Assembly: GCF_000495475.1 (NCBI RefSeq)
Contig: NZ_ASGZ01000005.1
Location: 62,001 to 126,000, forward strand
Source: Candidatus Halobonum tyrrellensis G22
Lineage (GTDB): Archaea; Halobacteriota; Halobacteria; Halobacteriales; Haloferacaceae
Length of the DNA stretch: 64,000 nt
Direction: 5' to 3'
Shown here: positions 9,762 through 51,590 of the stretch, in pieces
Layout of the letters: the number at the start of each line of letters is the position of its first letter
How positions within the stretch are numbered: position 1 is the stretch's first letter
Program-made: the position numbers and the translations under genes
The notes under the pieces: generated by a model
Databases searched by the model: none
The model's input: the letters and a program-made list of their open reading frames with translations, nothing else
Told to the model about the DNA's origin: nothing

Positions 9762-10631
9762 TCACTCCACCGTCCCTTGCAGCTCGACCGCCCTGATCAG
9801 ATGCTTCTGGAGCGCCAAGAACAGAACCAACAGCGGGATCGACGCGGTGAGCGCCGACGCCATCACTAGCCCGGGCTGGCTCGTCGTCGCGTAGGCGTCG
9901 CGCACGGTGACGAGTCCGATGGGGAGGGTGTACATCGACTCGCTCTGGAGCAAGACGAGCGGTAACACGAACTGGTTCCACGTGCTGATGAACGTGAACA
10001 GCGCCAGCGCGGTCATCGCGGGCTTCATCATCGGCAGGATGAGCTTGGCGTATATCTGCACCGTCGAGAACCCGTCGAGTTGGGCGGCCTCCTCGAGTTC
10101 CTTCGGGAAGTCCTTGAAGAACTGCACCAGGAGGAAGACGCCGAGCGCGCCGCCCGACAGCGGGAGGATGACCCCGATGTACGTGTTGAGCAGCCCCAAA
10201 CTCGAGATGATGGTGTAGATGGGGATCAGGTTGACGACCGCCGGGATCATGAAGCTAGCGAGGATCGTCACGAACACCAGTCGGCGGCCTGGCCACTTTA
10301 GCCGCGTGAGCGCGAACGCGATCATCGAGTCGATGACGAGGACGACCACCGTCACCCCGCCCGCGAGGATGATCGTGTTGATGATCCACTGGACCATCGG
10401 GGCGGCGGCGAACAGTTGTTCGTACCAGGTCGTCGTCACCGCCGGCGGGATCAGGTGGGGGTTGCGGTCGAAGATCAGGTTCCGCGGGAGGATCGACTGG
10501 GTCGCCATGTACCAGTAGGGGAGGAAGAACAGGATGCCCGCGCCGTACATGGCGACGTACACCCCGAACTTCCGTAGCCGCGTCTCGTCGATGCCGATGG
10601 TCTCGTTGAGCGTCGAGCGGACGGTGCTCAC
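9762..10631 (-). CDS. Sugar ABC transporter permease, MalG type (CUT1)
   Basis: A 289-residue inner-membrane subunit of a CUT1 sugar importer with six predicted membrane spans. The cytoplasmic EAA loop EEAAQLDGFSTVQ...LILPMMKPA, which docks on the ATPase, is complete at about residues 190-220. The start overlaps the end of the MalF-type permease gene by 4 nt, so the two are translationally coupled. Gene order is binding protein, MalF-type, MalG-type, all on the minus strand. The matching ATPase gene is not in the operon; the ATPase at 17422-18552 is the likely partner. Confidence 0.92.
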   Translation of the reverse strand: MSTVRSTLNETIGIDETRLRKFGVYVAMYGAGILFFLPYWYMATQSILPRNLIFDRNPHLIPPAVTTTWYEQLFAAAPMVQWIINTIILAGGVTVVVLVIDSMIAFALTRLKWPGRRLVFVTILASFMIPAVVNLIPIYTIISSLGLLNTYIGVILPLSGGALGVFLLVQFFKDFPKELEEAAQLDGFSTVQIYAKLILPMMKPAMTALALFTFISTWNQFVLPLVLLQSESMYTLPIGLVTVRDAYATTSQPGLVMASALTASIPLLVLFLALQKHLIRAVELQGTVE

Positions 10632-11548
10632 GCGCTCGTCCCCCCGTCGTCCTGCAGGACGAAGTAGTTGACGAGCGAGACGGCCACCATCACCAAGAAG
10701 AGGACGTACCCGACCGCGGCGGCGTAACCGAACTCCCGGGCGGAGAACCCAGTGCGGTAGAGGTACATCACGATGGTCTCCGTCGCTCCGGCGGGACCGC
10801 CGTCGGTCATGATGTACGGTTGCCCGAACACCTGGAACGACGAGAGGAACGACGTGATGACCACGAACATCATCGGGTTACGCATCTGCGGGATGGTGAT
10901 GTCGACCATCGCGCGCCAACTGGTCGCGCCGTCGAGACGCGCCGCCTCGTACAACTGTTCGCCGACGTTCTGTCGGGCGGCGAGCAGGATGATGAAGTTG
11001 AACGCGATGGTCCACCAGATGGTCGCGATGGCCACGGCGGGCATCGCCAAGAGGGGGTCGATCAACCAGTTGACCGGTTCGGCGACGAAGCCGGTGAAGT
11101 ACGCGATGAGGCCGTTCGTCTCGAAGACGTCCTGCCAGAGCAGGCCGACAACCGAGACGGTGAGTACGTACGGACTGAAGAACAGCGTCCGCAGGACTCT
11201 CCGCCCCTTGATGCTCCGATTGACGCCCAACGCGAGCAGGAGCGAGAGGACGACCAAGAACGGGACCGTCAACACGACGAAGTAGACGGTGTTACCCAGC
11301 GCGTTCCAGAACTGCGGGTCGGCGAGCAACGTCTGGTAGTTCGCCAGCCCGACGAACTCGGTCCGGTCCGGGAACAGCGCGTTCCAGTCGTGGAGGCTCA
11401 TCCAGAACCCGTACGCGAGCGGGTAGACGAGGAAGGCGGCGAAGACCAGGAGGTACGGCACTGAGAACCCGTACCCCTCCAGCGTCTCCCGGAGCGAGTA
11501 CTCCTCGCGTACGGCTCGGATGCGCTGTTGGGGGGTAGAGATGCTCAC
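10628..11548 (-). CDS. Sugar ABC transporter permease, MalF type (CUT1)
   Basis: A 306-residue permease with a cytoplasmic N-terminus of about 30 residues and six membrane spans. The EAA loop YEAARLDGATSWRAM...ITIPQMRNP lies at about 205-235. It begins 3 nt after the binding-protein stop and overlaps the next permease by 4 nt, a tight operon. It forms the heterodimeric membrane channel with the MalG-type partner. The family is certain; the sugar is inferred to be arabino- or galacto-oligosaccharide from neighbouring glycosidases. Confidence 0.92.
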   Translation of the reverse strand: MSISTPQQRIRAVREEYSLRETLEGYGFSVPYLLVFAAFLVYPLAYGFWMSLHDWNALFPDRTEFVGLANYQTLLADPQFWNALGNTVYFVVLTVPFLVVLSLLLALGVNRSIKGRRVLRTLFFSPYVLTVSVVGLLWQDVFETNGLIAYFTGFVAEPVNWLIDPLLAMPAVAIATIWWTIAFNFIILLAARQNVGEQLYEAARLDGATSWRAMVDITIPQMRNPMMFVVITSFLSSFQVFGQPYIMTDGGPAGATETIVMYLYRTGFSAREFGYAAAVGYVLFLVMVAVSLVNYFVLQDDGGTSA

Positions 11549-11551
11549 GGG

Positions 11552-12931
11552 TTACTTCCAGACGGAATTGAGGTTCTGTTTGATCTTGTCGAGTGCCTGT
11601 TGCGGCTCCATGTTCCCCGTGCGGACGGCGGTGACCGGGTCGTAGATGGCCTGGTGGTACTGACCGTTCTTCCGCGTCCGGGGGACGTACATGAACTCGT
11701 CGTTTTCGAGCATCTCGAACCACGTCTCCATCGTCTTATTCCAGACGGGCGCCTCCCTGAGCTCCTGGCTCTCGCGCGCTTGAACCGCGTTGGGGATGTG
11801 ACCCGCGCTCGTCCCCCACAGCAGCCCGTAGTCCTGCGTGATCGTCTTGGCGGCCTGCTTGGCCGCGTCCGTCTTCTCCTTACTCCGGTTTTTACTCGTC
11901 GGCACGGCGATCGAGTGGCTGTTACTCCACGTCTTGTTCTCGTCGAGACCCATCCCGGGGGCCGGCGGGGCTTTCATGAAGCCCCACTCCAAGTCGAGTT
12001 CCTTGTACGCGTTGTACGTCCACGTGCCGTTGTTGAGCGCCGCGGTGCCGTTGTTCTGGAACTGCTCGAACGCGACCGCGGTGTCTTTCGGGAACCACTC
12101 CCAGTTCGCGCGCATGTCGTTGACCGTCTGGAGCACCTTCAGGCCGTCCTCGTTGTCGAACCCCATCTCCCACCCGTTGTCGGTCTCTTCGAGGATCACG
12201 TTCCCCATCTGGCGGAGCCACGGGTAGTAGACGCGGTTGCCGTGGAGAGCCCCGCCGGGGTCGTACCCCATCTTGTCGGTCTCGGAGACGACGGTATCGA
12301 TCTTCTCTTTGAACTCGCTCCACGACCCCATCGTCTGTTCGGGGTCGAGCCCCGCCTCCTCGAAGATCCCCTTGTTGTAGTACGTCCCCGTCCCGAGGAT
12401 GTCGAGCGGCGCGCTCCGCAGGTCGCCCGCGACGACCCCCTCGCCGTACGACGTGCTGTAGTAACTGCTCTCGTCGAGCGTGTCGGTCAGTGGCTCGAAC
12501 GCCTCGCCGAAGCGTTTGATCCGACTCAGGTGACAGATACACATGTCCGGCGGATTCCCGCCGCTGAGTGAGGTGTACAGTTTGGTGTAGTACTGGTCCC
12601 ACGGGATGCGCTGTCGCCTGATCTGGATGTTGCTGTTCTCCTCGTTGAACGTGTCGACGATCTCTTTCATCGTCGCTCCGTCGCCGCCGGCGAACAGCGT
12701 CCAGTAGTCGAGCGTGATCTGGTCGGGTGCCGCGGTCGCGGTGGGGGTTCCGGTCGGCGTCGACGACCCGGTGCCGGTCTCCGAGTCGGTCGGGGCGTCG
12801 CCCCCGCCACCCCCGCCGCTGGCACACCCTGCGAGCGCGATAAACCCGGACCCGCCGAGCGCCGACAGCACCTGTCGCCTCCGCGCGGTACGGGCTCCCG
12901 TATCCGTGTCTGTGGCTATCTTTCGGGACAC
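11552..12931 (-). CDS. Extracellular sugar-binding lipoprotein of the CUT1 ABC importer
   Basis: A 459-residue solute-binding protein (family 1). A Tat motif with RRR at 17-19 followed by QVLSALGG and a lipobox LAGC (Cys36) indicate Tat export and lipid anchoring, usual for haloarchaea. A Ser/Thr/Asp/Gly linker follows to about residue 70, then the bilobed binding domain starting TLDYWTLFAGGDG. A TATA box at 12952-12961 lies about 26 nt before the ATG. It is the first gene of the operon with the two permeases. The upstream region (12932-13361) is packed with palindromes that may control it, although their orientation matches the dehydratase relic better. Substrate specificity is not visible. 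Confidence 0.92.
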   Translation of the reverse strand: MSRKIATDTDTGARTARRRQVLSALGGSGFIALAGCASGGGGGGDAPTDSETGTGSSTPTGTPTATAAPDQITLDYWTLFAGGDGATMKEIVDTFNEENSNIQIRRQRIPWDQYYTKLYTSLSGGNPPDMCICHLSRIKRFGEAFEPLTDTLDESSYYSTSYGEGVVAGDLRSAPLDILGTGTYYNKGIFEEAGLDPEQTMGSWSEFKEKIDTVVSETDKMGYDPGGALHGNRVYYPWLRQMGNVILEETDNGWEMGFDNEDGLKVLQTVNDMRANWEWFPKDTAVAFEQFQNNGTAALNNGTWTYNAYKELDLEWGFMKAPPAPGMGLDENKTWSNSHSIAVPTSKNRSKEKTDAAKQAAKTITQDYGLLWGTSAGHIPNAVQARESQELREAPVWNKTMETWFEMLENDEFMYVPRTRKNGQYHQAIYDPVTAVRTGNMEPQQALDKIKQNLNSVWK

Positions 12932-13044: not shown

Positions 13045-13063
13045 CGTTTCTTCGGAGGAAACG
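13045..13063. promoter_or_regulatory. 19-bp palindrome CGTTTC-N7-GAAACG (operator-like, copy 1)
   Basis: Perfect 6-bp arms CGTTTC and GAAACG are separated by seven bases. On the minus strand the site and its flanks (TTCGTTTCCT..GAAGAAACG) closely match the site at 20737-20755. Dyads of this size are typical transcription-factor targets. Candidate binder: the IclR protein encoded at 20880-21698 (inference). Confidence 0.6.
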
Positions 13064-13127: not shown

Positions 13128-13149
13128 ATTACAGCGGTACTGTTGTAAC
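13128..13149. promoter_or_regulatory. 22-bp palindrome ATTACA-N10-TGTAAC (operator-like, copy 1)
   Basis: The arms TTACA and TGTAA flank ten bases with GTAC at the centre. Near-identical sites occur at 20659-20680 and 54234-54255. Read on the minus strand, its right half (CAGTACCGCTGTAATCC) is identical to the 54-kb copy. It lies between two copies of the 19-bp palindrome. Confidence 0.6.
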
Positions 13150-13251: not shown

Positions 13252-13270
13252 CGTTTCCCAGTGAGAAACA
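13252..13270. promoter_or_regulatory. GTTTC-N7-GAAAC palindrome (operator-like, copy 2)
   Basis: CGTTTC, seven bases, then GAAACA: the inner 5-bp arms are perfect. It lies 92 bp before the ATG of the dehydratase relic at 13362. On the minus strand it reads TGTTTCTC..GGGAAAC, matching the copy at 20527-20553. Confidence 0.55.
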
Positions 13271-13361: not shown

Positions 13362-13513
13362 ATGGCCCCACGACGAGTCCGTACCGCGGAGCCCACCGAC
13401 TCCGAACCGTTCGCGGTACCGCCGCGGTCGCTGTTCGTGAAGTTGGAGACGTCGGACGGCGCCGTCGGTTGGGGGGACCGGCCGTCGAGGGACGCGCGAA
13501 CACGCCGTCGTAG
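13362..13513 (+). pseudogene. Truncated, frameshifted N-terminus of a galactonate-dehydratase-like enolase-superfamily gene
   Basis: From the ATG at 13362 the translation reads FAVPPRSLFVKLETSDGAVGWG, the conserved N-terminal strand of D-galactonate dehydratase-like mandelate-racemase/enolase family proteins. After GWG (a run of six G at 13471-13476) the reading frame is lost. Restoring one base gives PAVEGRANT, which continues the family pattern (EPVVEGRA), and a stop follows at once. Only about 50 of roughly 380 codons remain. The 3' part was lost next to the convergent oxidoreductase gene ending at 13523. Its upstream region retains the same three operator-like palindromes as the GH2 gene at 18677-20413. 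The intact parent may have served oxidative galactose catabolism (inference). Confidence 0.75.
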
Positions 13514-13522
13514 TAGAGCGCG

Positions 13523-14599
13523 TTAGGAATCGACCGTAACCCGTTCGCCCGACTCGGCCGACCGGTGGATCGCTTCGAGCGCCCGCATATCCACGAGGCC
13601 GTGCCGCCCGTCGGGGCCCGGGTCGCGGTCGGTGAGGACGGCCTCCGCGAAGTAGTCGAACAGGTCGACCATCTGGTTCGCGTCGGGCGTCTCGACGTCG
13701 AGGCTCCGGTCGCCGACCGTCAGCCGGAGTCGAGTGTCCATGTGGTAGGCGGGGTCGAGTCGGAGGCTCCCCTCGGTCCCGACGACCTGGAGGTACGTCC
13801 GTTCGGCGGCGTTCTGACTCGCCACGCACGTCGAGTGAACGCCGCCCTCGAACTCAAGGAGGACCGACGCGAGTTCGTCGGGAACCCGGTCGAACGCCTC
13901 GTGGTCCGACCGCATCGACGCCTGAGCGGCGACGGGGTCGGCGTCGAGGAGGAACCGGGCCGTGTTGAGGTGGTAGATTCCCAGGTCCACGACCGAGGTT
14001 CCGTAGCCGGTCAGGTCGGGGTCGAGACGCCACTGGTCGTGGTCGGCGAACATGTCGAGCAGGCGCTGGCTGTTGACGCCGGTCACGAACCGGGGTTCGC
14101 CGATCACACCCTCGCGGACCAGTTCACGGGCGCGTCGGACGGCCGGAACGGTCTGCATCCGGTAGCCGACGATCAACTCGACGCCCGCCTCCTCGCATAC
14201 GTCGACCAGCCGCTCCGCGCGGCCGACGGTGGCCTCCATCGGCTTTTCACACAGGACAGCCTTCCCCAGACCGGCCGCCGTCTCGGCGTAATCGAGGTGA
14301 TAGGCGTTGGGCGTACAGACGTACACCGCGTCGTACCCCTCCCGTCCGACCCCGTCGTGGAACTCGTCGTAGTCGAGCACCCGTGACACCGTCTCGACGT
14401 CCGCGGCGACACGCTCGCCCTTCGCCCGCGACCCCGTCACGAGCGTCGTCGTCTCACACCGGTCCACCGCCTCGATGGCGGGCAGGACCCGCTCGGTCGT
14501 CCACCAGCCGAGACCGACGAGTGCCAATCGTACGGTGCCCTCGGCCCCCGTCCGCCAGTCGCGCTCGGCGAACTCGCCGAGACAGTTCGACAGTGACAT
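13523..14599 (-). CDS. Gfo/Idh/MocA family NAD(P)-dependent sugar oxidoreductase
   Basis: A 358-residue oxidoreductase. The Rossmann nucleotide site is LVGLGWWTTERVLPAI near residue 25, and the catalytic-lysine motif CEKPMEATV is near 125. A DxxxY/H-type pair occurs in VVDLGIYHLNTARF. The ATG at 14599 is chosen because a TATA-like TTTTTGTACT (14621-14630, minus strand) lies about 28 nt upstream; the open frame extends further but is not protein-like. It is divergent from the secreted GH43 gene. Only moderately similar by eye to the first oxidoreductase (1945-2958), it probably handles a different sugar. Function beyond the family is not visible. Confidence 0.9.
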   Translation of the reverse strand: MSLSNCLGEFAERDWRTGAEGTVRLALVGLGWWTTERVLPAIEAVDRCETTTLVTGSRAKGERVAADVETVSRVLDYDEFHDGVGREGYDAVYVCTPNAYHLDYAETAAGLGKAVLCEKPMEATVGRAERLVDVCEEAGVELIVGYRMQTVPAVRRARELVREGVIGEPRFVTGVNSQRLLDMFADHDQWRLDPDLTGYGTSVVDLGIYHLNTARFLLDADPVAAQASMRSDHEAFDRVPDELASVLLEFEGGVHSTCVASQNAAERTYLQVVGTEGSLRLDPAYHMDTRLRLTVGDRSLDVETPDANQMVDLFDYFAEAVLTDRDPGPDGRHGLVDMRALEAIHRSAESGERVTVDS

Positions 14600-14690: not shown

Positions 14691-17345
14691 ATGAAAAACA
14701 GTGACAATTTCGGGGCGGAGATGAATCGGAGAAGCCTCCTTCAGCGGATAGCGCTCGGAGCGGGCGCGCTCTCGACTGCGGCCACCGGAACGGCCGAGAC
14801 GCCCGCGGGCCCGGTCGACCGGTCGACGTATCGCAACCCGGTGTTCGAGCCGGTGTTCGCGGACCCGAGTACGGTCCGAACCGACGACGGGTGGTACTAC
14901 GCGTACGGCACCATGGACAGGTGGGGCGACGGCGAGGGGTTCCGGATCGTCCCGATCGTCCGGTCGACCAACCTCGTGGACTGGGAGTACGTGGGCGACG
15001 TGTTCGAGTCGGTTCCCGAGTGGCTCGAACGCGGCGACGCGGACTTCGTGTGGGCGCCCGACGTCGCGCAGTACCGCGGGAAGTACCACCTCTACTACTC
15101 GCTGGTCGACGCCGCGCCCGAGTACAACGACGACGCACAGGGGGTCGGCCTCGCCGTCGCCGACTCGCCCGCGGGACCGTTCACGGACCGCGGGAAGGTG
15201 TTACAGGGGTTCGAGGTCGGGGTACTCAACTCGATCGACCCGATGTTCTACGTCGACGACGGCACCCCTCACTTGATCTGGGGGAGTTTCAACGGCATCT
15301 ACCTGGTCGAGTTGACGCCCGACGGCACCGCACCCGCGGGCGACCCCGTCCAGATCGCCAGCGCCCGGTTCGAGGGGCCCTACGTGGAGGAGCGCGACGG
15401 AACGTACTACCTGTTCGTCTCGAGCGGGACGTGCTGTGACGGGCCGAGCAGTTCCTACCGGGTCGAGGTCGGTCGCGCCGACTCGCTCGACGGGCCGTAC
15501 CTGAACCGGGACGGCGAGTCGCTCCTCGACGCACCGGGGTCGGTCGTGGTCGACGACAGCGAGCAGTTCGGCGCGCCCGGTCACAACGGGCTCGCGTACG
15601 ACGACGCCGATCGGGCGTGGCTGGTGTACCACGGCTACGAGCGCGACGAACCGGGGTTCATCGCCGACGGCGCGGCGCCCCGCCGACCGCTGTTCGTCGA
15701 CCCTCTCCAGTGGGAGAGCGGGTGGCCCGCCGTCGAGGGCCGCGTCCCCAGCGTCACCCAGCGCCGCCCGTCGATCGAGACGGGCGAGCAGCCGCGGGTC
15801 GCCGTCCCGAACGTGTCGGCGTCCGTGACGAGCGTCACGCCGGACGAGCGGTTCTCGGTCACCGCGACGATACGGAACGAGGGGGCCGACGGGACGGCGT
15901 ACGTCAACCTCTACGACGGGTCGACCGTCGTCGACTCCGCGCCCGCGGTGCTGTCGGCGGGCGAGACCCAGGAGGTGTCGTTCGAGACCCGGCTGTACAC
16001 CGGCGGCGACCACGCCCTCTCGGTCGGCACGTCGGTGGATCGGGCCTCCGAGCCCGTCACCGTCACCGTCGACCCGCGGCCGGCGGAACTCGCGTTCGAC
16101 GACGTCGAGATGCCCGACGTGTTGAGCGCGGCCGAGGCCGGCGAGTTCTCGGCGACCGTCCGGAACGTCGGGAGCTACGAGGCGTCGGAGTCGGTCGACT
16201 TGGTCGTCGACGGGTCGGCCGTGATGTCGTCGCCGGTGGACCTCGACCCCGGCGAGTCGACCGCGCTCACCTTCCGGCGGGCGTTCACGGTCGCCGACGA
16301 CGGCTACCAGGTGGACCTCGTCGCCGGGAACGTCGAGGAGCGCCTCGGCGAGAGCGACGACGACTTCTACGGCCGTCAGGACCGACTGATCCAGTACGCG
16401 CACACCGACGGCGACGAGGTGACCGACCGTGACACGTGGATCAACTCGCTCGCACCCGAGACGCGGGCGCACGTCGACGCGGACCCGGTCGAGGTGGGCG
16501 ACGGCACCGCCTCGGTCGACGTCACCGTGACCGGCGAGACGGACCGCCCGCTCTCGCTGGCGGGGTACACGCTCCCCGGCGGGGAGTTCTCGTTCGACAC
16601 CGCCGACGAGCAGGACCTAGTCGCGGCCACGAGCCGGACACTCGACCCCGGCGAGCACACACTCGAGATCCCGCTGCCGGGCGAGGGGTCGCTCTCGACG
16701 CCCGAGTCGTACGGCACCCACGAGGTGACGTTCGACGGCGACGACTCGACGGCCGCCACGCTCACCGTGCTCGCGCCGCCGCCGGCGTCGTTCTCCACGT
16801 TCGCCAACACGACCGCCGACTTCGGCCAACTCGACGGCGACTACGCGGTCAACGCCGCCGGGACGGACACGTGGACGTTCGCGGACGAGTACGGCACCCT
16901 CTACCGGTCCGACGCCGCGGGCGAGCGGGTCGACGTCGAAGTGCGGGTGACGGGCCAAGAGGAGACCGACGCGTACGCCAAGGCCGGGATCATGGTCCGC
17001 AACGACCTGGCCGCGCCGGGCGAGTCGCTGGGCTACGTCCTGCTGACCGCGCTCGCGGGCACGGGCTACCAACTGTCGTGGGACGCTACCGACGACGGCT
17101 TCATCGACAGCGGACCGGTCGCGGGGAGCGAACCCGACTACCCGGTCCGCCTCCGGCTGGAGAAGCGGGGGAGTACGTTCCGCGGCTACTACAGCCCCGA
17201 CGACGGCGCGACGTGGGCGCAGGTCGGCTCCGCGGTGAGTGTCCCGTCAGCCGACGCCGTCCAGGACGCCGGGATGTTCGTCTGCGCGCTCGACGCCGAC
17301 CCGTCGCTGGTCACGTTCGACGAGTTCGCGATCCGGCCGCGGTAA
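14691..17345 (+). CDS. Secreted GH43 arabinanase-like enzyme with CARDB and concanavalin-like C-terminal domains
   Basis: An 884-residue exported protein. MNRRSLLQRIALGAGALSTA at 11-30 is a Tat signal lacking a lipobox Cys, so it is probably released. The GH43 five-blade propeller spans about 48-360: catalytic base D58 in FADPS, pKa modulator D183 in NSIDPMFYV and general acid E228 in FEGPYVEE, a pattern of arabinan endo-1,5-alpha-L-arabinosidases and arabinofuranosidases. Two CARDB-like beta domains follow (about 375-455 and 465-550), then a linker and a 190-residue concanavalin-A-like/DUF1349 domain with FANTTADFGQLDG and KAGIMVRND. The latter probably binds polysaccharide. The start at 14691 keeps the whole Tat signal; the ATG at 14721 is possible. 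It would cut the polymer outside the cell for the ABC importer. Confidence 0.88.
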   Translation: MKNSDNFGAEMNRRSLLQRIALGAGALSTAATGTAETPAGPVDRSTYRNPVFEPVFADPSTVRTDDGWYYAYGTMDRWGDGEGFRIVPIVRSTNLVDWEYVGDVFESVPEWLERGDADFVWAPDVAQYRGKYHLYYSLVDAAPEYNDDAQGVGLAVADSPAGPFTDRGKVLQGFEVGVLNSIDPMFYVDDGTPHLIWGSFNGIYLVELTPDGTAPAGDPVQIASARFEGPYVEERDGTYYLFVSSGTCCDGPSSSYRVEVGRADSLDGPYLNRDGESLLDAPGSVVVDDSEQFGAPGHNGLAYDDADRAWLVYHGYERDEPGFIADGAAPRRPLFVDPLQWESGWPAVEGRVPSVTQRRPSIETGEQPRVAVPNVSASVTSVTPDERFSVTATIRNEGADGTAYVNLYDGSTVVDSAPAVLSAGETQEVSFETRLYTGGDHALSVGTSVDRASEPVTVTVDPRPAELAFDDVEMPDVLSAAEAGEFSATVRNVGSYEASESVDLVVDGSAVMSSPVDLDPGESTALTFRRAFTVADDGYQVDLVAGNVEERLGESDDDFYGRQDRLIQYAHTDGDEVTDRDTWINSLAPETRAHVDADPVEVGDGTASVDVTVTGETDRPLSLAGYTLPGGEFSFDTADEQDLVAATSRTLDPGEHTLEIPLPGEGSLSTPESYGTHEVTFDGDDSTAATLTVLAPPPASFSTFANTTADFGQLDGDYAVNAAGTDTWTFADEYGTLYRSDAAGERVDVEVRVTGQEETDAYAKAGIMVRNDLAAPGESLGYVLLTALAGTGYQLSWDATDDGFIDSGPVAGSEPDYPVRLRLEKRGSTFRGYYSPDDGATWAQVGSAVSVPSADAVQDAGMFVCALDADPSLVTFDEFAIRPR

Positions 17346-17421: not shown

Positions 17422-18552
17422 TCAGGCGCGGGAAGGCTGTGAGTCGGCCGCGACCCGCGACCGACCCTCGACGAGGACGTTTTCCTCCGTCTGCCCGTCG
17501 AAGAGGTGGACGTCCTCCTCGTCGAACGTGATGGACAGATGCTCCGACTCGGTGGGCTTGACGTCGGCCGAAACCCGGACAGTACACTCCTCGTCGCCGA
17601 CGAGCACGTAGAGGTAGTTGTCGCTCCCCACCGGTTCGACGACGTCGACCGTCGCTCGGACGCTCTGGTCGCCCTCCTCACCGATCCGCATGTTCTCCGG
17701 GCGGATCCCGAGCACGCCCGTCTCGCCCGTCATCCGCTCGCGGATGCGCTCGGCCAACTCCCGCGAGAGCGGGTAGTCGAACGCCCCGCCCGAGAGGACG
17801 GTTCCATCCAGTTGGACGTCGAAGAAGTTCATCGACGGCGAGCCGATGAAGTCGGCGACGAACTGGTTGGCGGGCCGGTGGTATATCTCGTCGGGCGCGC
17901 CGATCTGCTGGATCTCGCCGTGGTTGAGTATCACGACCCGGTCGGACATCGTGAGCGCCTCCTCCTGGTCGTGGGTGACGTACATCGTCGTCGTGTCGAG
18001 GTCCTCCTGGATCCGCTGGAGTTCCGTCCGCATGTGGAGGCGGAGTTTGGCGTCGAGGTTCGACAGCGGCTCGTCGAACAGGAACACCTCGGGCTCGCGG
18101 ACGATCGCACGCCCCGTCGCCACCCGCTGCTGCTGGCCACCCGACAGCTGTGCGGGCTTCTGGTCGAGCAGGCCCTCGATCCCCATCATCTCCGCCGCTT
18201 CGACCACCCGGCCGTCTATCTCGTCGTCCGAGAGGCTCGTGGTCTGTTTGAGCCCGTAGGACATGTTCTGGCGGACGCTCATGTGGGGGTAGAGCGCGTA
18301 GTTCTGAAACACCATCGCCACGCCGCGGTCTTGGGGCTGGACGTCGTTTATCTCCCGTCGGCCGATCTCGACCGTCCCCTCGGTGATGTCTTCGAGTCCC
18401 GCGACCATCCGGAGGAGGGTCGACTTCCCCGACCCCGAGGGGCCGACGATCGTCGTGAACTCGCCGTCCTCGATCCGGAAGTCCACATCGTCCACCGCCA
18501 AGATTTCCTCGTCGTACACCTTCGAAACGTGGTCGAAGTTCACTTCGCTCAT
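17422..18552 (-). CDS. Sugar ABC transporter ATPase, MalK/UgpC type (CUT1)
   Basis: A 376-residue ATP-binding subunit. Walker A is GPSGSGKST at 37-45, the signature LSGGQ at 136-140, Walker B FLFDEP with D160/E161, and a C-terminal OB/TOBE regulatory domain of about 130 residues ends with LSITFDEEDVHLFDG. It is the only ATPase near the binding protein and permeases at 9.8-12.9 kb, which lack their own, so it very likely powers that importer although transcribed separately. Such ATPases can serve several CUT1 importers. It lies between the GH43 and GH2 genes. Confidence 0.93.
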   Translation of the reverse strand: MSEVNFDHVSKVYDEEILAVDDVDFRIEDGEFTTIVGPSGSGKSTLLRMVAGLEDITEGTVEIGRREINDVQPQDRGVAMVFQNYALYPHMSVRQNMSYGLKQTTSLSDDEIDGRVVEAAEMMGIEGLLDQKPAQLSGGQQQRVATGRAIVREPEVFLFDEPLSNLDAKLRLHMRTELQRIQEDLDTTTMYVTHDQEEALTMSDRVVILNHGEIQQIGAPDEIYHRPANQFVADFIGSPSMNFFDVQLDGTVLSGGAFDYPLSRELAERIRERMTGETGVLGIRPENMRIGEEGDQSVRATVDVVEPVGSDNYLYVLVGDEECTVRVSADVKPTESEHLSITFDEEDVHLFDGQTEENVLVEGRSRVAADSQPSRA

Positions 18553-18676
18553 AATCGATTATCCAGTTACCGTTGGCCCACGTTACTACAAGAAGGTTTT
18601 GCCGCCCGGGTGACGCGAACGCGGCCGGCCGTTCGGGACCGCGTTGACCACCGGCGGTCGGTGGGATCGGGCGCCG

Positions 18677-20413
18677 TCAGTCGTTTCGCTCGACCGCCGC
18701 GGGCTGTCGCATGATATCGCGGAGTTCACGCTCGCGTTCGGGGTCGAACTTCGACTCGCGGTCGTAGGTGAACAGGCCGTTAGCCTCCTGCTCGATGTCG
18801 TACAGTTGGGTGTAACAGAGGAGCCCGATGGCCTCGTTGTCCAACAGCGCCTCGGTCAACCCGCGGTACCGGTCGACGAACTCGTCGACGCTCTCCGGGC
18901 GGTCGCCGTACCCCCACCCCTCCTCCGCACCGGGATTCCACCAGATGCCGCCGTACTCGCTGACGTAGCTGAGTTCGGGGCCGTACTCGCCGTCGCCGTA
19001 GTCGAGGGTGACCGACTCGCCGGCTTCGAGCGCGTCGTACCGCTCGCGGAACTCGTCGACGTCCTGCGTGTAGTCGTGAACGTCGAGGAGGTCGGTCTCG
19101 ACGTGGACGTAGCCGCTGGTGTCGACGACCGGCCGGGTGGGGTCGAGCGCTTTCGTGGTCCGGTAGACCGTCCGGAGCAGGTTGTCGTCCTGGTCAGACG
19201 TGGTCTCGTTGAACGGCGTCCACCCGACGAGCGAGGGGTGGTTGTAGTCGCGTTCGACCACCTCGATCCACTCTTGGAGGAACGGGGCGAGGTTCGACGG
19301 GTCGGAGTGGTCGAGCCCCCAGTTGGCGTGTTCACCCCAGACGAGGTAGCCCAACCGATCGGCGTGATAGAGGTACCGCGGCTCGAACACCTTCTCGTGG
19401 AGGCGGGCACCGTCGAACCCCATCTCCATCCCGAGTTCGATGTCGCGTCTGAGCGCGTCGTCGGACGGGGCCGTGTACAGTCCCTCGGGGTAGTACCCCT
19501 GGTCGAGGATCAGCCGCTGGAACCGCGGCTCGCCGTTGAGGAGGACCACGCCGTCCTCGACGGACACCGACCGGAGCCCGGTGTAGCTCTCCACCTCGTC
19601 CACTACCTCCCCGTCCCGGCGGAGAGTGACCGCGAGGTCGTACAGGTCGGGCGACTCGGGGGTCCACGGGTGGACCTCGTCGACGTCGACGACGCACCTG
19701 GCCGTCTCCCCCGCGACGGGCGTCGACACTTCGCCGACGGTGTCGCCGTCGAACGTCGCGGTGACCGTCAGTTCGGTCCCGCGGGGGTCGCCGCGGAGCG
19801 ACGCCGTGAGGTGAACCGTTCCGTCGGGGAGGTTCGGGTCGATACGGAGGTCCTCGACGGACGTTTCGGGAACCGGTTCGAGCCAGACGGGTTGCCAAAT
19901 GCCGGTGATTCGGGTGTAGACCGCCCCGTGAGAGTCGTACCGCTTGCTCTGTTTGCCCGCGGGCTGTGTCTCGGTGCGGACCTCGTCGCGCGCACAGACC
20001 GTGAGGACGTTGCTCCCCGTCTCGACGTGGTCGGTCACGTCGAAGGTGAACGGTGTGTACCCGCCGCGGTGAGTGCCGACCGACTCCCCGTTCAGCCACA
20101 CCTCGGCCTCGTAGTCGACCGCACCGAAGTGGAGGAGGAGACGTCCCGCCAGGTCCTCCTCGGTCACCTCTACCTCGCGTCGGTACCACACCGCGTCCAT
20201 GAAGTCGCGATGGTCGACGCCCGACAGTTCGCTCTCGGGGGGAAACGGGACAGTGATCGTGCGTTCGAGGTCGGCGGCCGTCGGGAGCCCTCGCGCGCGT
20301 CCCGTCCTCCCGTGGTCGATCTCGAACTCCCACTCGCCGTTGAGCGATCGCCAGTCGTCGCGCCGTAGCTGCGGCCGTGGATACTCCTGTCGCGGAGCGT
20401 CGTCGGTCACCAT
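18677..20413 (-). CDS. GH2 beta-galactosidase/beta-glucuronidase-like glycosidase
   Basis: A 578-residue GH2 enzyme with sugar-binding domain (about 1-180: LNGEWEF, VWLNGESVGTHRGGY), immunoglobulin-like domain (180-280) and TIM barrel (290-578). The acid/base is E403 in WTPFNET and the nucleophile E486 in VSEYGG. It is compact and lacks an export signal, so it acts on imported oligosaccharides. Exact specificity (galactoside, arabinoside or uronide) is not readable. Its upstream region (20414-20879) contains three operator-like palindromes and a TATA-like TAGATTTAGG near 20447. The same palindrome set lies before the galactonate-dehydratase relic, hinting that galactose metabolism is the shared theme. 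Confidence 0.88.
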   Translation of the reverse strand: MVTDDAPRQEYPRPQLRRDDWRSLNGEWEFEIDHGRTGRARGLPTAADLERTITVPFPPESELSGVDHRDFMDAVWYRREVEVTEEDLAGRLLLHFGAVDYEAEVWLNGESVGTHRGGYTPFTFDVTDHVETGSNVLTVCARDEVRTETQPAGKQSKRYDSHGAVYTRITGIWQPVWLEPVPETSVEDLRIDPNLPDGTVHLTASLRGDPRGTELTVTATFDGDTVGEVSTPVAGETARCVVDVDEVHPWTPESPDLYDLAVTLRRDGEVVDEVESYTGLRSVSVEDGVVLLNGEPRFQRLILDQGYYPEGLYTAPSDDALRRDIELGMEMGFDGARLHEKVFEPRYLYHADRLGYLVWGEHANWGLDHSDPSNLAPFLQEWIEVVERDYNHPSLVGWTPFNETTSDQDDNLLRTVYRTTKALDPTRPVVDTSGYVHVETDLLDVHDYTQDVDEFRERYDALEAGESVTLDYGDGEYGPELSYVSEYGGIWWNPGAEEGWGYGDRPESVDEFVDRYRGLTEALLDNEAIGLLCYTQLYDIEQEANGLFTYDRESKFDPERERELRDIMRQPAAVERND

Positions 20414-20526
20414 GCTCGGTCGTACTACCCCTCCCCGCCACCTAAATCTACCTGACGGGGAGCGGAACCCCCTCCTCCGGAGTGCGCTCGCTGGATATCC
20501 GACCGTTTCGGTCGGCGGATCACGCT

Positions 20527-20553
20527 CCGGTGTTTCTCGTCGGGAAACACCGG
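20527..20553. promoter_or_regulatory. 27-bp palindrome CCGGTGTTTC-N7-GAAACACCGG (operator-like)
   Basis: Perfect 10-bp arms around seven bases, the longest member of the GTTTC-N7-GAAAC set. It lies 114 bp upstream of the GH2 start codon (20413), and its counterpart is at 13252-13270. Confidence 0.65.
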
Positions 20554-20658
20554 GATCGAGTGTCGACGAAAAGGGGAACCGGACGGAGTGCGTCGTTCGG
20601 CCCTGTCGACTGGTACCAAGCGGGGAACCCCCTGTCAGTAACGCGCACGGGCAGAGAA

Positions 20659-20680
20659 ATTACACTGGTACTTCTGTAAC
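20659..20680. promoter_or_regulatory. 22-bp palindrome ATTACA-N10-TGTAAC (operator-like, copy 2)
   Basis: TTACA and TGTAA arms with central GGTAC. It lies between the two GTTTC-N7-GAAAC sites of the GH2 upstream region. See 13128-13149 and 54234-54255. Confidence 0.6.
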
Positions 20681-20736
20681 GATTCGCGGTCGAAGGGTGA
20701 AGTAGAGGGGGACGGCCCGAACCACGAACTGGCGTT

Positions 20737-20755
20737 CGTTTCCTGTGAAGAAACG
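20737..20755. promoter_or_regulatory. 19-bp palindrome CGTTTC-N7-GAAACG (operator-like, copy 4)
   Basis: Perfect 6-bp arms around CTGTGAA. Its flanks match the minus strand of the site at 13045-13063. It lies between the 3' end of the IclR gene (20880) and the GH2 promoter. Confidence 0.6.
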
Positions 20756-20879: not shown

Positions 20880-21698
20880 TCAGTCGGACAAGCGGAGCAG
20901 GTTCGTCTCGACGGACTTCCCCGTCTCGACGAGGAGTCCCGCGATCTCCTCTTGGAGGCGGCGGCCGTAGAGGCTCGACTCCGCCCCGCTGACTTCGATC
21001 GCGGCGACGGCGTAGTTGTTCGCGTCGCGAATGGGGACGGCCACGCCGTTGAGGTCGTGGTACGGTTCGCCGTGGCCGACGACGTGTCGGTGTCCCTCGA
21101 ACGAGCCGGCGCTGAACACGCGCTCTTGGGGGTTCGAGCGCCCGACCACCAGCCGCTGGTCCCGGAGGGTGCGTAGCTCGGAGAGGAGTTTCTCCGTGTC
21201 GGTGTCGTCGTCGGTGTCGAGCGTCTCCAACAGCGCTCGTACCTCCTCGGTCGGTCTGTACGATAAGAGCGCCTTGCCACCGACCGAGATAGGCGCCGGG
21301 ATGCGCTCGCCCTCCTCGACCGGGGACAACGCCGGTTCGCGCTCGCTGCTCTGGAGGATGTACACCGCGTCCCCCGCCTCCTCGACCACCAGCGATACCG
21401 TCTCACCGGTCCGCCGCGCGAGGCTCTCCACTTCGTCCTTGGCGGCCTGAAACACCGGTCGGCGCTCGCGCACCCGCCTGCCGGCACCGAGCCACCGCAT
21501 CGACAGCGAGTACCGGGTCCCCTCTTTGCTCACGTATCCGAGTTCGAGGAGCGTGCTCAGGTGCTTGTGAACCGAACTCTTCACGATCCCCGTCTCCTGT
21601 GCGATCTCGGTGACGCCCATCTCTCCCCCCTGGTTCAACGCCTCGATGATCGTGAACGCGGTGACGTCGGACTTCACGCGGTGGGAGGTGGTTGCCAT
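20880..21698 (-). CDS. IclR-family transcriptional regulator
   Basis: A 272-residue regulator. The N-terminal winged helix (about 10-70: TIIEALNQGGEMGVTEIAQ, SSVHKHLSTL) binds DNA, and the C-terminal IclR effector domain (about 85-270) contains PAPISVGGKALLS. The ATG at 21698 is set by a TATA-like TTTTATTGAT (21721-21730, minus strand) about 29 nt upstream. IclR proteins control pentose and other sugar genes in haloarchaea (XacR in Haloferax is one). The gene lies between two GH2 genes, divergent from the larger one. The GTTTC-N7-GAAAC and TTACA-N10-TGTAA palindromes beside its 3' end are candidate targets (inference). Activator or repressor status is unknown. Confidence 0.9.
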   Translation of the reverse strand: MATTSHRVKSDVTAFTIIEALNQGGEMGVTEIAQETGIVKSSVHKHLSTLLELGYVSKEGTRYSLSMRWLGAGRRVRERRPVFQAAKDEVESLARRTGETVSLVVEEAGDAVYILQSSEREPALSPVEEGERIPAPISVGGKALLSYRPTEEVRALLETLDTDDDTDTEKLLSELRTLRDQRLVVGRSNPQERVFSAGSFEGHRHVVGHGEPYHDLNGVAVPIRDANNYAVAAIEVSGAESSLYGRRLQEEIAGLLVETGKSVETNLLRLSD

Positions 21699-21812
21699 CG
21701 TCCCCGTGGGTAACCGGGCGATCAATAAAACTATTTTCCCGGATCGATACCGCCGGGACGAGCGCACAGAACAGTTAACACGCTGGAGACGAGGGGAGAG
21801 TCCGAAACCAGT

Positions 21813-21944
21813 ATGACAGATCAGTCCCCGCGTTCGAGCAGTTCCGGTGTCCTCACCGGTAAGTACGCCCGTTCGACTGCCCGGTCGGAACTACCCGACC
21901 GAGCGCCGGCGAACGAGGCGCTCGGGAGTAGCGGACGTGAGTGA
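21813..21944 (+). CDS. Possible 43-residue upstream ORF overlapping the GH2 start
   Basis: The ATG at 21813 opens 43 codons (MTDQSPRSSSSGVLTGKYA...) ending in a TGA at 21942-21944 that overlaps the GTG at 21937 of the next gene (GTGAGTGA). A weak TATA-like CAGTTAAC near 21776 would place transcription start just before this ATG. The peptide has no recognisable domain. It could be a leader peptide coupling translation of the GH2 gene, or chance. Confidence 0.3.
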   Translation: MTDQSPRSSSSGVLTGKYARSTARSELPDRAPANEALGSSGRE

Positions 21945-24738
21945 ACGCGGATCGGACCACGTAGCCGGAGGGCCTGTCCCCGCCAGCGAGTCCCCTCGCC
22001 GGTCGGTCAGTCTCGACGGCCGGTGGTCGTTCGTTACCGACCCGGCCGGGGACGGCATCGACGCCGGGTGGTACGCCGCAGCCGCCGAGTGGCCGGTGAG
22101 ATCCCGGATAGTGTCGGTTCCACACACATGGCAGAATATGGACTCGTGTCACAACTACGTCGGGACCGTCTGGTACCGCCGGACCGTCGACGTCGATGCA
22201 GCCGACCTCCGTGGACGCGACGCCCTCCTTCGGTTCGGGGCAGTCGACTACGAGACGACCGTGTGGGTCAACGGGGTGGAGGTGGGGTACAACCGGGACG
22301 GCTACCTCCCGTTCGAATTCGACGCAAGCGAGGCGATCGAACCGGGCGAGAACACCGTCGTCGTCCGGGTCACCGACCCCGAGAACCTCGAAGAGATACC
22401 GCACGGGAAGCAGGGCGACCCGTGGTACACGCGGGTGAGCGGGATCTGGCAGTCCGTCGCGTTGGCGTTCGTCCCGCCCACCCGGACCGAGTCGGTCCGG
22501 GTGACGCCCGACCTCGATCGCGACGAGGCCTCGGTCGAAGTGACGACGCGCCTCGGTCCGGCCGCCGAGGCGGATCTGACGTGCGTGGTTCGCGCGACGC
22601 CGCGGGAGTCGCGGTCGGACGCGGGCAGGAACGACGGTGACGGGAGCGCTGATCGAACCGCTGTGACGGCCGAAACGACCGTCTCGGCCGCCGAAACCAC
22701 CGACGTCGTTCTCCCGTTCGACGATCCGGCGTACTGGCGGCCGGAGTCGCCCGCACTGTACGACGTGACGGTCGAACTGGTCGACGACGGGGACGTCGTC
22801 GACCGATACGCGGACTACTTCGGGATGCGGAGCTTCGGGTACGCGGACGGCCAGTTCCTGCTCAACGGCGAGGAGATCGAACTCCGGGGCGTCCTCGACC
22901 AGGGGTACTACCCGGAGACGCAGTACCGCCCTCCCACCGACGACGCGTTCGCCCGGGAGGTGACGGCCGCCAAGGGGTTGGGGTTCAACCTCATCAGGAA
23001 GCACGTCAAACCCGCACATCCCGAGTTCCTCCGGGAGGCCGACAAGCAGGGGATCTTAGTGTGGGAGGAACCGGCGAACCCGACCCGGTACACCGCACGC
23101 TCGCAGTCGGAGACCACCGCGCAGTTGGCTGGACTGGTCGAACGGGACTACAACCGACCGAGCGTCGTCGTCTGGTCGCTCTACAACGAGGAGTGGGGGG
23201 TCGGCCACCACGACGACGACGAGACGCTGTGGACTGACGCGGAGAAACAGCAGTTTCTCGCCGACGCGTACCGGTCGGTCCGGGAGCGCGACGCCACCCG
23301 CTTGGTGTGTGACAACTCCGGGTGGGCGCACGTCACCACCGACGTCAACGACTTTCACCGGTACTTCGCCAGTCCCGACCGTGCGGAGACGTGGGAGGAC
23401 GAACTCGACCACATGCGGTACTACGCCGCCGACAACTACGCGACGACGCGGTTCGTCGACGGCGACGTCTGCGACGTCCCGGTCGTCGCCTCGGAGCTCG
23501 GGACGTGGGGGATGGGCGACCTCTCACGCCTGCGCGACCGGTACGGCGGCGACCCCGAGTGGTTCTCACACGAGTTCCTGACGGAACCGCTCAAGCGTCC
23601 GGAGGGCGTCGACGAGCGGTTCGAGACGACCGAACTGTCCGAAGTGTTCGACGACTTCGCCGACCTGGAAGCGGCGTGGCAGCGCCGCGAGTTCGTCTCG
23701 ATCAAACACCTCGTCGAACAGATCCGCGTTCGCGACGGGGTCGCCGGATACGTTCTCACGCAACTGTCCGACATCGAGTGGGAGTTCAACGGGCTGTTCG
23801 ACTACCTCCGCGAGGAGAAGTCGTTCTGCGACGAGTTCGCGCGGGTGAACGCCCCGCTGTCGGTCGTCGCCGAACCCGACGTACACGCCGTGTCGGCGGG
23901 TGACTCCCTGTCGTTCGACCTGACCGTCGTCAACAGCACACGCGAGCCGGTGACCGGGACGCTCGGCTGGTCGTTCCTCGGCGAGTCAGGTCGAGAGACG
24001 GTGACCGTCGGGCCGAACGCGACCCACCGGGTCGGGCGGCGCGTCCCCGAGGTTTCGGGGACGAATCGAACGGTCGGAACCGACGACCTCAGCGCGGTCT
24101 TCGAACACTCGGGTGACGACGCCACGACGACGGAGCCGGTGACCGTCGTGGACTGCGGGCGGGACATGTCGTCGACCGGCGTCGTCTACGCCGGTGGGGC
24201 GTTCGCGTCGCGGCTGGCGAGCGAGGGGGTCGACGTCACCCACGAACTCACGGACGGGACGGATCTCGCGTTCGTGACTCGGATCGACGCCGCCGTCGAG
24301 CGGTACGCGGCGGAGGGAGGTACCGTCGTCCACCTCCCGACGAGCGACGGAACCATGACCGGCGGCGGCCCGTTCGTCTACCGTTCGCTCCCCAAGGAGG
24401 CGAGTTGGCTGGGCGCGACATCCTTCTTCTATCAGAACTCGCCGCTGTTGGCGGGCGTCTGCGACGGCCCGCGTCTCGGGTGGGAGTTCGAGGGACTCTA
24501 CCCGTACGCCGTCGCGACCGATCTCGACTCGGCAACCGACGACGTTCACGTCGGTTGCGTCGAAGGGTGGCTCGCGAACCCCGGGAGCCCGCTGGTCGTT
24601 CGGTCCCGCGACGGCGGCGGACCGTTCGTCGCACTGACGTTCCGTGTGCAGAACGCCTACGGCTCTCACCCGATCGCGACGCTCCTCTGCGACCGGCTGA
24701 TCGAAGAGTTCACCGCCCAAACTCGACCGAGAGGCTGA
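21937..24738 (+). CDS. Large GH2 glycosidase with C-terminal extension
   Basis: A protein of about 933 residues from the GTG at 21937 (a GTG at 21847 is in frame but adds only arginine-rich sequence). GH2 sugar-binding domain at about 20-170 (LDGRWSFVTDP, VWVNGVEVGYN), immunoglobulin-like domain, and TIM barrel. The acid/base is E418 in WSLYNEEWG and the nucleophile E520 in VASELGTWG. After the barrel (about 640) a 290-residue extension contains a beta-sandwich and a Rossmann-like region (VVDCGRDMSSTGV...) resembling C-terminal parts of large plant-polysaccharide GH2 enzymes. There is no signal peptide. It is divergent from the IclR gene. Specificity is unknown; beta-galactosidase is the commonest GH2 activity. 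It ends 60 bp before the AT-rich junction with integrase relics. Confidence 0.85.
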   Translation: MSERGSDHVAGGPVPASESPRRSVSLDGRWSFVTDPAGDGIDAGWYAAAAEWPVRSRIVSVPHTWQNMDSCHNYVGTVWYRRTVDVDAADLRGRDALLRFGAVDYETTVWVNGVEVGYNRDGYLPFEFDASEAIEPGENTVVVRVTDPENLEEIPHGKQGDPWYTRVSGIWQSVALAFVPPTRTESVRVTPDLDRDEASVEVTTRLGPAAEADLTCVVRATPRESRSDAGRNDGDGSADRTAVTAETTVSAAETTDVVLPFDDPAYWRPESPALYDVTVELVDDGDVVDRYADYFGMRSFGYADGQFLLNGEEIELRGVLDQGYYPETQYRPPTDDAFAREVTAAKGLGFNLIRKHVKPAHPEFLREADKQGILVWEEPANPTRYTARSQSETTAQLAGLVERDYNRPSVVVWSLYNEEWGVGHHDDDETLWTDAEKQQFLADAYRSVRERDATRLVCDNSGWAHVTTDVNDFHRYFASPDRAETWEDELDHMRYYAADNYATTRFVDGDVCDVPVVASELGTWGMGDLSRLRDRYGGDPEWFSHEFLTEPLKRPEGVDERFETTELSEVFDDFADLEAAWQRREFVSIKHLVEQIRVRDGVAGYVLTQLSDIEWEFNGLFDYLREEKSFCDEFARVNAPLSVVAEPDVHAVSAGDSLSFDLTVVNSTREPVTGTLGWSFLGESGRETVTVGPNATHRVGRRVPEVSGTNRTVGTDDLSAVFEHSGDDATTTEPVTVVDCGRDMSSTGVVYAGGAFASRLASEGVDVTHELTDGTDLAFVTRIDAAVERYAAEGGTVVHLPTSDGTMTGGGPFVYRSLPKEASWLGATSFFYQNSPLLAGVCDGPRLGWEFEGLYPYAVATDLDSATDDVHVGCVEGWLANPGSPLVVRSRDGGGPFVALTFRVQNAYGSHPIATLLCDRLIEEFTAQTRPRG

Positions 24739-50036: not shown

Positions 50037-51344
50037 ATGGCGAAGATCACCTTCATCGGAGCGGGGAGTATGGTGTTTTCCGTGAAACTCGTCGGCGACA
50101 TCCTGTCGTTCCCGGCGCTTGACGACAGCACCGTCGCGCTGATGGACATCGACGAGTCGCGGCTGGAGAAGACGACGCGGGTGGCCGAGGCGATGGTGGA
50201 CAACGAGGGGCTCGACGCGACGATCCAGTCGACGACCGATCGGCGGGAGGCGCTCGACGGTGCCGACTACGTCCTGAACATGATCAACGTCGGCGGCACG
50301 GAGCCGTTCGAAAACGAGATCCGGATCCCCGAGCGGTACGGTGTCGAGCAGGCCATCGGCGACACCATCGGTCCGGGCGGCATCTTCCGGGGGCTCCGAA
50401 CCATCCCGACGATGCTCGACATCGCGAGCGACATCGCGGAGGTCTGCTCCGACGCGCTCCTGCTCAACTACACCAACCCGATGTCCATCCTCTGTCAGAC
50501 GATGTTCGAGGCGACGGACGTCGAGACGGTCGGACTCTGTCACAGCGTCCCCCACACCGCGGCGGCCATCGCCGACTACGTCGGCGTCCCCGAGGAGGAA
50601 CTCGACTACTGGGTCGCCGGGATCAACCACGTCGCGTGGTTCCTCGAAGCCAGCCACGACGGCGAGAGCGTCTACCCGGCGCTCCACGACGCGATGGACG
50701 ACCCCGAGACGTACGAACGCGACACGGTCCGGTTCGAGATGATGCGGCACTTCGGCTACTTCCCGACCGAGTCCTCCCACCACATGTCGGAGTACGTCCC
50801 GTACTTCCGGACCGACGAGGCGACTATCGAGGAGATGACGGGGACGGACTACGCCGAACGCATGCCCACGGCGACCTACCTCGAAGGCTGGCGGGAACGC
50901 TCCGACAGCCGCGACGACCCGGAACTCGACGTCGACCTCGGCGAGGTGACGGTCGACCGCTCCGAGGAGTACGCCTCCCGGCTCATCCACTCCGTCGAGA
51001 CGGACACGCGCCGGCGACTCAACCTCAACGTCAGCAACGAGACGGACGCCATCACCAGCCTCCCGTCGGACGCGTGCGTCGAGGTTCCCGTCCTCGTCGA
51101 CGGCGCGGGCCTACACCCGTGTTCGGTCGGCGAGTTGCCGTCGTCCATCGGCACGTTCCCACAGCAGCACGCCGCCGTCAACCGACTCGTCGTCGAGGGT
51201 GCCCTCGAGAACGACCGGGCGAAGGTCCACCGCGCGGTCAAGCAGGACCCGCTCACGGCCGCCGCGCTCGAACTCGACGAGATACACGAGATGACGGAGG
51301 AGTTGCTCGACGCGAACGCGGCGTACCTGCCGGATCTGAACTGA
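50037..51344 (+). CDS. GH4 glycosidase (alpha-galactosidase/alpha-glucosidase/galacturonidase family)
   Basis: A 435-residue cytoplasmic enzyme of the NAD- and Mn-dependent family GH4. The dinucleotide fold begins KITFIGAGSMVFS, with the metal-binding CHS at C168-H169 (GLCHSVPHT), GINHVAWF carrying the second metal His, and the NYTNPM loop. GH4 members hydrolyse alpha- or beta-glycosides by a redox mechanism; the CHSV pattern is commonest in alpha-galactosidases and galacturonidases. It is divergent from the importer operon and upstream of the IclR gene, so it probably hydrolyses the imported sugar. Exact specificity is uncertain. Confidence 0.9.
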   Translation: MAKITFIGAGSMVFSVKLVGDILSFPALDDSTVALMDIDESRLEKTTRVAEAMVDNEGLDATIQSTTDRREALDGADYVLNMINVGGTEPFENEIRIPERYGVEQAIGDTIGPGGIFRGLRTIPTMLDIASDIAEVCSDALLLNYTNPMSILCQTMFEATDVETVGLCHSVPHTAAAIADYVGVPEEELDYWVAGINHVAWFLEASHDGESVYPALHDAMDDPETYERDTVRFEMMRHFGYFPTESSHHMSEYVPYFRTDEATIEEMTGTDYAERMPTATYLEGWRERSDSRDDPELDVDLGEVTVDRSEEYASRLIHSVETDTRRRLNLNVSNETDAITSLPSDACVEVPVLVDGAGLHPCSVGELPSSIGTFPQQHAAVNRLVVEGALENDRAKVHRAVKQDPLTAAALELDEIHEMTEELLDANAAYLPDLN

Positions 51345-51400
51345 CCCCGTCGGGACCGACGGGACCGCCGTTCGCCGCGAAGCGGTGGTGCCGTCCGGTC

Positions 51401-51417
51401 GTTCACGTATCGTGAAC
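51401..51417. promoter_or_regulatory. 17-bp palindrome GTTCACG-TAT-CGTGAAC (operator-like, copy 1)
   Basis: Perfect 7-bp arms with a 3-bp centre, 57 bp after the GH4 stop. Two related sites follow at 51574 and 51830, all upstream of the IclR gene. Confidence 0.65.
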
Positions 51418-51573
51418 ACTCTCGGCGCCACCCACCCGGTCGACTCCTCCTCGGCTAGCCTGCTCAGTCGACCGAACGGTCCCGCTCGATCGTACGACTC
51501 CCCATCGGTCGATAGGGGCCCCCGTCCGTCGGTCAGTCGGACGGACGCCGTCGCCGAAACGGTCCGCCGGTCT

Positions 51574-51590
51574 GTTCACGATGTATGAAC
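51574..51590. promoter_or_regulatory. 17-bp palindrome GTTCACG-ATG-TATGAAC (operator-like, copy 2, degenerate)
   Basis: The same layout as copies 1 and 3 but the right arm has two changes; the 5-bp outer arms GTTCA/TGAAC are kept. Confidence 0.5.

Follow-up and report, generated by a model that had tools for sequence, protein, structure and literature searches.

Group 1 of the bacterial IclR operators includes a subgroup of the layout GTT-11-AAC, with the consensus GTTYCRYW3RYGRAAC (PMC8222616), in which the interior R-Y-WWW-R-Y is a preference of the consensus from which some published members differ (PMC8222616). Among haloarchaea, the IclR-family proteins XacR, GacR, RhcR and MscR have been reported as activators (PMC11519228), and MscR of Haloarcula hispanica is a genetically proven one, being needed for growth on mannitol and sorbitol (PMC11519228). 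The literature that we searched contained no published haloarchaeal IclR operator, the XacR, GacR and RhcR papers lying outside that search.

Here we analyse a 64-kb window, by which we mean the whole stretch of DNA under study, in which an IclR-family regulator gene adjoins a sugar ABC transporter and catabolic genes. This arrangement is that of XacR, GacR, RhcR and MscR, although the sugars and the gene sets differ. Four exact copies of the palindrome GTTTC-N7-GAAAC lie around the gene, and we consider it very probable, judging from sequence comparison, that they are the operators of its product. A sequence-only reading of the same DNA knew of no published haloarchaeal operator with this layout; taken broadly, the layout has been published, being the bacterial GTT-11-AAC one. 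It is thus a kind already known from bacteria, to which the haloarchaeal site set adds. What looks new here is a paralog-specific IclR operator code in haloarchaea, together with a shared partner palindrome, TTACA-N10-TGTAA.

Palindromes around an IclR-family gene

The protein encoded at 20880-21698 scores above the cut-off for both IclR-family domains in Pfam (PF09339, 50.1 bits; PF01614, 80.5 bits). The genes and sites of its neighbourhood are the following.

9762-10631 and 10628-11548, minus strand (leftward): permeases of the sugar ABC transporter operon (whole transporter 9762-12931)
11552-12931, minus strand: sugar ABC transporter solute-binding protein (Pfam SBP_bac_8), first gene of the proposed target operon
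13046-13062, unstranded: putative operator 1, GTTTC-TTCGGAG-GAAAC, 115 bp before the GTG (12931) that starts the solute-binding-protein gene
13129-13148, unstranded: partner palindrome TTACA-GCG-GTAC-TGT-TGTAA, between operators 1 and 2
13253-13269, unstranded: putative operator 2, GTTTC-CCAGTGA-GAAAC, about 117 bp ahead of where the decayed plus-strand dehydratase gene presumably started
13395-13478, plus strand: dehydratase remnant of the enolase superfamily (MR/MLE), residues 4-31, 68% identical to the intact gene of related clusters, E about 3e-7
13523-14599, minus strand: cluster oxidoreductase of the Gfo/Idh/MocA type; may start at an in-frame codon further upstream
14691-17345, plus strand: glycoside hydrolase family 43 (GH43) with CARDB domain (Pfam)
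17422-18552, minus strand: transporter ATPase, downstream of GH2 on its strand
18677-20413, minus strand: glycoside hydrolase family 2 (GH2; Pfam), proposed target
20532-20548, unstranded: putative operator 3, GTTTC-TCGTCGG-GAAAC, 119 bp before the start codon of GH2 (20413)
20660-20679, unstranded: partner palindrome TTACA-CTG-GTAC-TTC-TGTAA, between operators 3 and 4
20738-20754, unstranded: putative operator 4, GTTTC-CTGTGAA-GAAAC, 325 bp before the GH2 start, 126 bp past the 3' end of iclR
20880-21698, minus strand: IclR-family regulator, 272 aa, HTH_IclR and IclR_C (Pfam), proposed reader of GTTTC-N7-GAAAC
21734-21750, minus strand: putative degenerate operator 5, GTATC-GATCCGG-GAAAA, two mismatches, ending 35 bp upstream of the iclR ATG
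21943-24738, plus strand: second GH2, divergent from iclR; start uncertain, in-frame starts existing upstream and downstream

Further left of the cluster are sulfatases and an arabinofuranosidase-like enzyme. Related clusters have an intact copy of the dehydratase gene, whose remnant here follows the 13253 site on its right. TATA-like elements, read from the sequence about 24-36 bp before the transporter and GH2 starts, make leaderless transcripts likely for both.

The four palindromes had been proposed in the sequence-only reading, with arms of 6 bp in two copies and 10 bp in one. All four cores were recovered as exact matches, against 0.04 copies expected in the window, and none of 100 dinucleotide shuffles gave four. 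Re-measurement returned the same arm lengths, the two 6-bp copies being those at 13046 and 20738 and the 10-bp copy that at 20532, and gave 5 bp for 13253. The 10-bp arms, CCGGTGTTTC and GAAACACCGG, form an inverted repeat of 27 bp (20527-20553); a further short inverted repeat, CCGACC-GAAAC-GGTCGG on the minus strand (20500-20516), adjoins operator 3 on its GH2 side. Each of the four sites is intergenic, and a scan of the whole window found no fifth exact copy. The earlier statement that the gaps between genes hold no other copy is correct for exact copies, but it missed the degenerate copy at 21734-21750. Also overlooked were the nearly equal distances within the two pairs, 207 and 206 bp, and a second palindrome, TTACA-N3-GTAC-N3-TGTAA.

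Scanning of the full genome (3.68 Mb, 72 contigs) showed that the motif is not at chance frequency: it occurs five times, four of the copies are confined to 7.7 kb around this one IclR gene, and the reversed control pattern has no match in the whole genome. The fifth copy (C13:153198) straddles a start codon and is without the YYNNNRR interior; it looks like chance and was set aside as a further operator.

Layout of the probable operators and paralog-specific inner bases

The four exact sites fit the palindrome GTTYC-N7-GRAAC. They share with the bacterial GTT-11-AAC operators a 17-bp palindrome with GTT and AAC ends 11 bp apart and the half-sites GTTYC/GRAAC (PMC8222616), and, as in bacteria, there is a site near the regulator's own gene and there are several sites per control region (PMC8222616). 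The motif also goes with an IclR-family gene, whose own control region or those of its neighbours contain the sites. The interior, in contrast, departs from the bacterial RY-WWW-RY, the count matrix showing a preference for YY-NNN-RR, and the host is an archaeon with TATA/TFB promoters. We take the interior to consist of regulator-specific inner bases, so that the claim is one of membership in a layout class and not of identity with the bacterial consensus. Pair spacing differs as well, being 18-22 bp in bacterial group 1 and mostly 124-223 bp in related haloarchaeal loci. Operators of the KdgR and AllR type (IclR group 2, TGRAACAN1-2TGTTYCA) have similar half-site letters, GAAAC and GTTTC, but in the opposite arrangement and with a spacer of 1-2 bp, whereas the half-sites described here stand in group 1 order around a 7-bp spacer.

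Among the 11 IclR genes of the window's genome (Pfam), five are preceded at -30 to -35 by a perfect GTT-11-AAC palindrome, the inner bases of which differ: GTTCCCCCCTCGGGAAC, GTTCCCGTAGCGGGAAC, GTTCTGGTCTCCAGAAC, GTTCACGATACGTGAAC and GTTCACTATCGGTGAAC. The palindrome GTTCACGATACGTGAAC is that of the window's second IclR gene, which serves as an internal control and has a putative operator set of its own in the same layout.

51401-51417, unstranded: GTTCA-CGTATCG-TGAAC, copy 1 of the private palindrome of the second IclR
51574-51590, unstranded: GTTCA-CGATGTA-TGAAC, copy 2
51830-51846, unstranded: GTTCA-CGATACG-TGAAC, copy 3, some 30 bp before the second iclR begins
51877-52707, plus strand: second IclR gene

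All three copies lie in the gap before this gene (51344-51877), and GTTCA-N7-TGAAC occurs nowhere else in the window. The evidence from paralogs comes from these 11 genes of a single genome, as a larger set of 51 IclR genes is biased by loci that had been chosen by motif, and its control genes are likewise contaminated.

The msc locus of H. hispanica also has GTT-11-AAC palindromes, although the half-sites of MscR are GTTCT/AGAAC. Copies of GTTCT-N7-AGAAC are found upstream and downstream of mscR (L172:9821, 10555 and 11004), and the near-palindrome GTTCTGCTCTAGTGAAC ends about 34 bp upstream of the gene (position taken from the sequence as printed). Most simply, the frame GTT-11-AAC would be common to the IclR paralogs, each of which would recognize inner bases of its own, and the inner letters of GTTTC-N7-GAAAC appear to be private to the 20880-21698 regulator.

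Conservation and a partner palindrome in other haloarchaea

Whole-genome searches identified orthologs of the IclR protein at 49-65% identity in nine other genomes of the order, in neighbourhoods that carry the same gene set as the cluster of the window. The motif GTTTC-N7-GAAAC clusters around these orthologs and is kept in the orthologous control regions. Its extended form, GTTTCYYNNNRRGAAAC, has 15 sites in 13 genomes with IclR orthologs or close homologs, 12 of which lie within about 28 kb of iclR (8 of 11 without the window's own genome); of the 392 genomes of the order, no more than 64 have any such site. Related clusters, in which genic DNA is 3.7 times longer than intergenic DNA, have intergenic and genic sites in a ratio of 9:0 for exact copies and 29:11 for copies with one mismatch, while with two mismatches the ratio falls to background (34:95). 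Enumeration of all 5-bp dyads with spacers of 3-12 in the non-coding DNA of 12 other clusters, performed blind to the motif, ranked it first, with 12 sites in 9 clusters in the shifted register TTTCT-N5-AGAAA and 9 sites in 5 clusters as GTTTC-N7-GAAAC; TTACA-N10-TGTAA came next. The earlier suggestion that the palindromes form an operator family of the adjacent IclR gene finds strong support in this comparative genomics, the binding itself being predicted.

The core alone does not identify one regulator, as it also occurs near other, distant IclR genes. When 29 loci of the same family were sampled on the core motif only, not one was within 1.5 kb of an IclR gene, and many of the copies elsewhere are therefore unrelated. 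Several site pairs (L074, L084 and L085) are flanked by convergent gene pairs, and a plain promoter-operator model does not explain such pairs unless a target gene has decayed. The gap at L074 (8300-9390), a locus of lower GC for which, as for L075, genes were called with a locus-trained model, holds a PfkB sugar kinase remnant (Pfam, 43.7 bits) and a GTTTC pair; those at L084 (7371-8145) and L085 (8876-9419) hold GTTTC pairs, but no gene start or remnant was found in them. A hidden small protein gene was also considered, and no convincing ORF was seen in the convergent gaps of L074, L084, L085 or L082.

Other features were observed at these loci. In one genome GTTTCCCACATAGAAAC stands in three tandem copies about 70 bp apart (G461 C2:476779, 476848 and 476918), and elsewhere a single 393-kb replicon carries the whole glycan cluster twice, nearly identical (L076 and L077; G412 contig C2, 5-25 kb and 362-382 kb). 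At L086 (8221-10326), L087 (9332-11446) and L088 (10417-12582) an open frame of about 700 aa has the IclR regulator as its C-terminal end; the N-terminal part of the L086 and L087 frames matches a BNR-repeat (sialidase-like) domain, possibly indicating a fused enzyme-regulator.

The window sequence at 21734-21750, GTATCGATCCGGGAAAA, neighbours the TATA-like TTTTATTG and is probably the autoregulatory site of iclR. Most ortholog genomes have, at the corresponding place before iclR, GTRTC-N7-GAAAC or something close to it, with its end 30-35 bp from the ATG. Six of the nine other ortholog genomes carry a copy there with one mismatch at most, a seventh (G346) has a copy with two mismatches, as in the window, and the iclR promoters of G452 and G461 show no clear copy. 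Distant IclR genes in Natrialba and Natrinema have an exact GTTTC-N7-GAAAC about 31 bp upstream of their starts.

The second palindrome, TTACA-N3-GTAC-N3-TGTAA, has nine exact sites in the genome, three of them in the window (13129-13148, 20660-20679 and 54235-54254), and is found between genes, beside sugar and IclR genes, across haloarchaea. Exact or one-mismatch copies of TTACA-N10-TGTAA lie between the paired GTTTC sites in L075, L084, L085, L087 and L088. The order TTACA-N10-TGTAA then GTTTC-N7-GAAAC at 45-75 bp has 30 matches in public genomes, of which 11 are haloarchaeal, and most of these 11 adjoin IclR and sugar genes. Strict helical phasing between the two elements (83, 42 and 124 bp in the first loci) was dropped given a spacing of 66-77 bp in Natrialba and Natrinema; the spacing varies, and fixed phasing is therefore not supported. 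No known factor in the literature searched matched the TTACA palindrome. The regulator TrmB, which in Halobacterium and Haloarcula responds to sugars and has a 19-bp site that is palindromic in part (PMC10817205), was weighed as a candidate reader of this element and not assigned.

Tentatively, we suggest that haloarchaeal sugar regulons might contain a composite module, in which two paralog-specific GTT-11-AAC sites flank a common TTACA-N10-TGTAA read by a second, broadly acting factor. If this is true, two-site IclR binding and the shared factor would make a combinatorial switch, and we know of no description of such a switch in archaea.

Predicted regulation of the glycan-use genes

Presence, rarity, position, conservation and co-distribution of the sites with the regulator were computed directly, while binding, dimer use, ligand and activation are what we infer. 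We propose that an IclR dimer would occupy each 17-bp site, its two winged helices reading the half-sites GTTTC/GAAAC of the extended motif. The regulator would govern a glycan-use regulon made up of the sugar ABC transporter (9762-12931) and of GH2 with the transporter ATPase (17422-20413), and the dehydratase gene with its remnant at 13395 may be a former member. At the target genes the proximal site would act from about 115-119 bp upstream of an apparently leaderless start and the second site from 206-207 bp further upstream, with the TTACA-N10-TGTAA element between them possibly serving the second factor. Control of iclR over its own gene would be exerted through the degenerate 21734-21750 site, which abuts the TATA/BRE region.

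Most likely, by analogy with the described haloarchaeal sugar regulators, the IclR protein activates the transporter and GH2 genes when a glycan-derived sugar is bound, a proposal that is less firm than the assignment of the operators. Against it counts that, for an activator in haloarchaea, a site about 115 bp ahead of a leaderless start is distant, and against the operator reading that the window's own iclR-promoter copy is degenerate and that three of the nine ortholog genomes are without a clear copy. The same protein could instead act on these sites as a sugar-relieved repressor of its targets and its own gene, which we regard as rather unlikely. The autoregulatory site reaches to 30-35 bp before the start and touches or overlaps BRE/TATA, where binding can block TFB/TBP, and the bacterial IclR members include repressors (PMC8222616). 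However, all four sugar IclR regulators of haloarchaea for which genetic data exist have been described as activating (PMC11519228), and simple blocking of RNA polymerase is unlikely from target sites about 115 bp upstream of starts.

It is improbable that a different transcription factor, encoded elsewhere, reads the palindromes and that the IclR neighbourhood is incidental. The presence of a second, widely distributed palindrome, TTACA-N10-TGTAA, shows that these regions may also be used by another factor, and the core motif occurs near other IclR genes too, but the copies track the iclR ortholog across genera, hold a fixed place before iclR and match the known operator class of the family. 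The inverted repeats might also be taken for RNA hairpins or terminators, given that the 27-bp repeat at 20527 follows iclR on the strand of that gene and has 10-bp arms that would form a stable stem. This is very improbable: the remaining copies have arms of 5-6 bp, the 17-bp core alone is conserved, related copies stand upstream of start codons at fixed distances, and haloarchaeal termination is attributed mainly to U-tracts. As for chance, or a recently duplicated control region, the near-equal spacing of the two pairs would fit duplication, yet the copies far exceed the expected number and are conserved in other genera. Alignment of the control regions at 13 kb and 20 kb finds the palindromes in common and no likeness in the flanks, so a single duplicated segment did not give rise to both pairs; duplication of the whole region was rejected, and we give hardly any credence to either chance or duplication.

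If the operator reading is right, the operator of an archaeal IclR protein could often be read from the 30-50 bp upstream of its gene and then be used to list its targets, which would give every haloarchaeon, for its set of IclR genes (11 in the genome of the window), a specificity code that can be tested. It would also fit a bacterial origin of these regulators, here along with their operator layout, and TTACA-N10-TGTAA would mark a second factor in the same sugar regulons.
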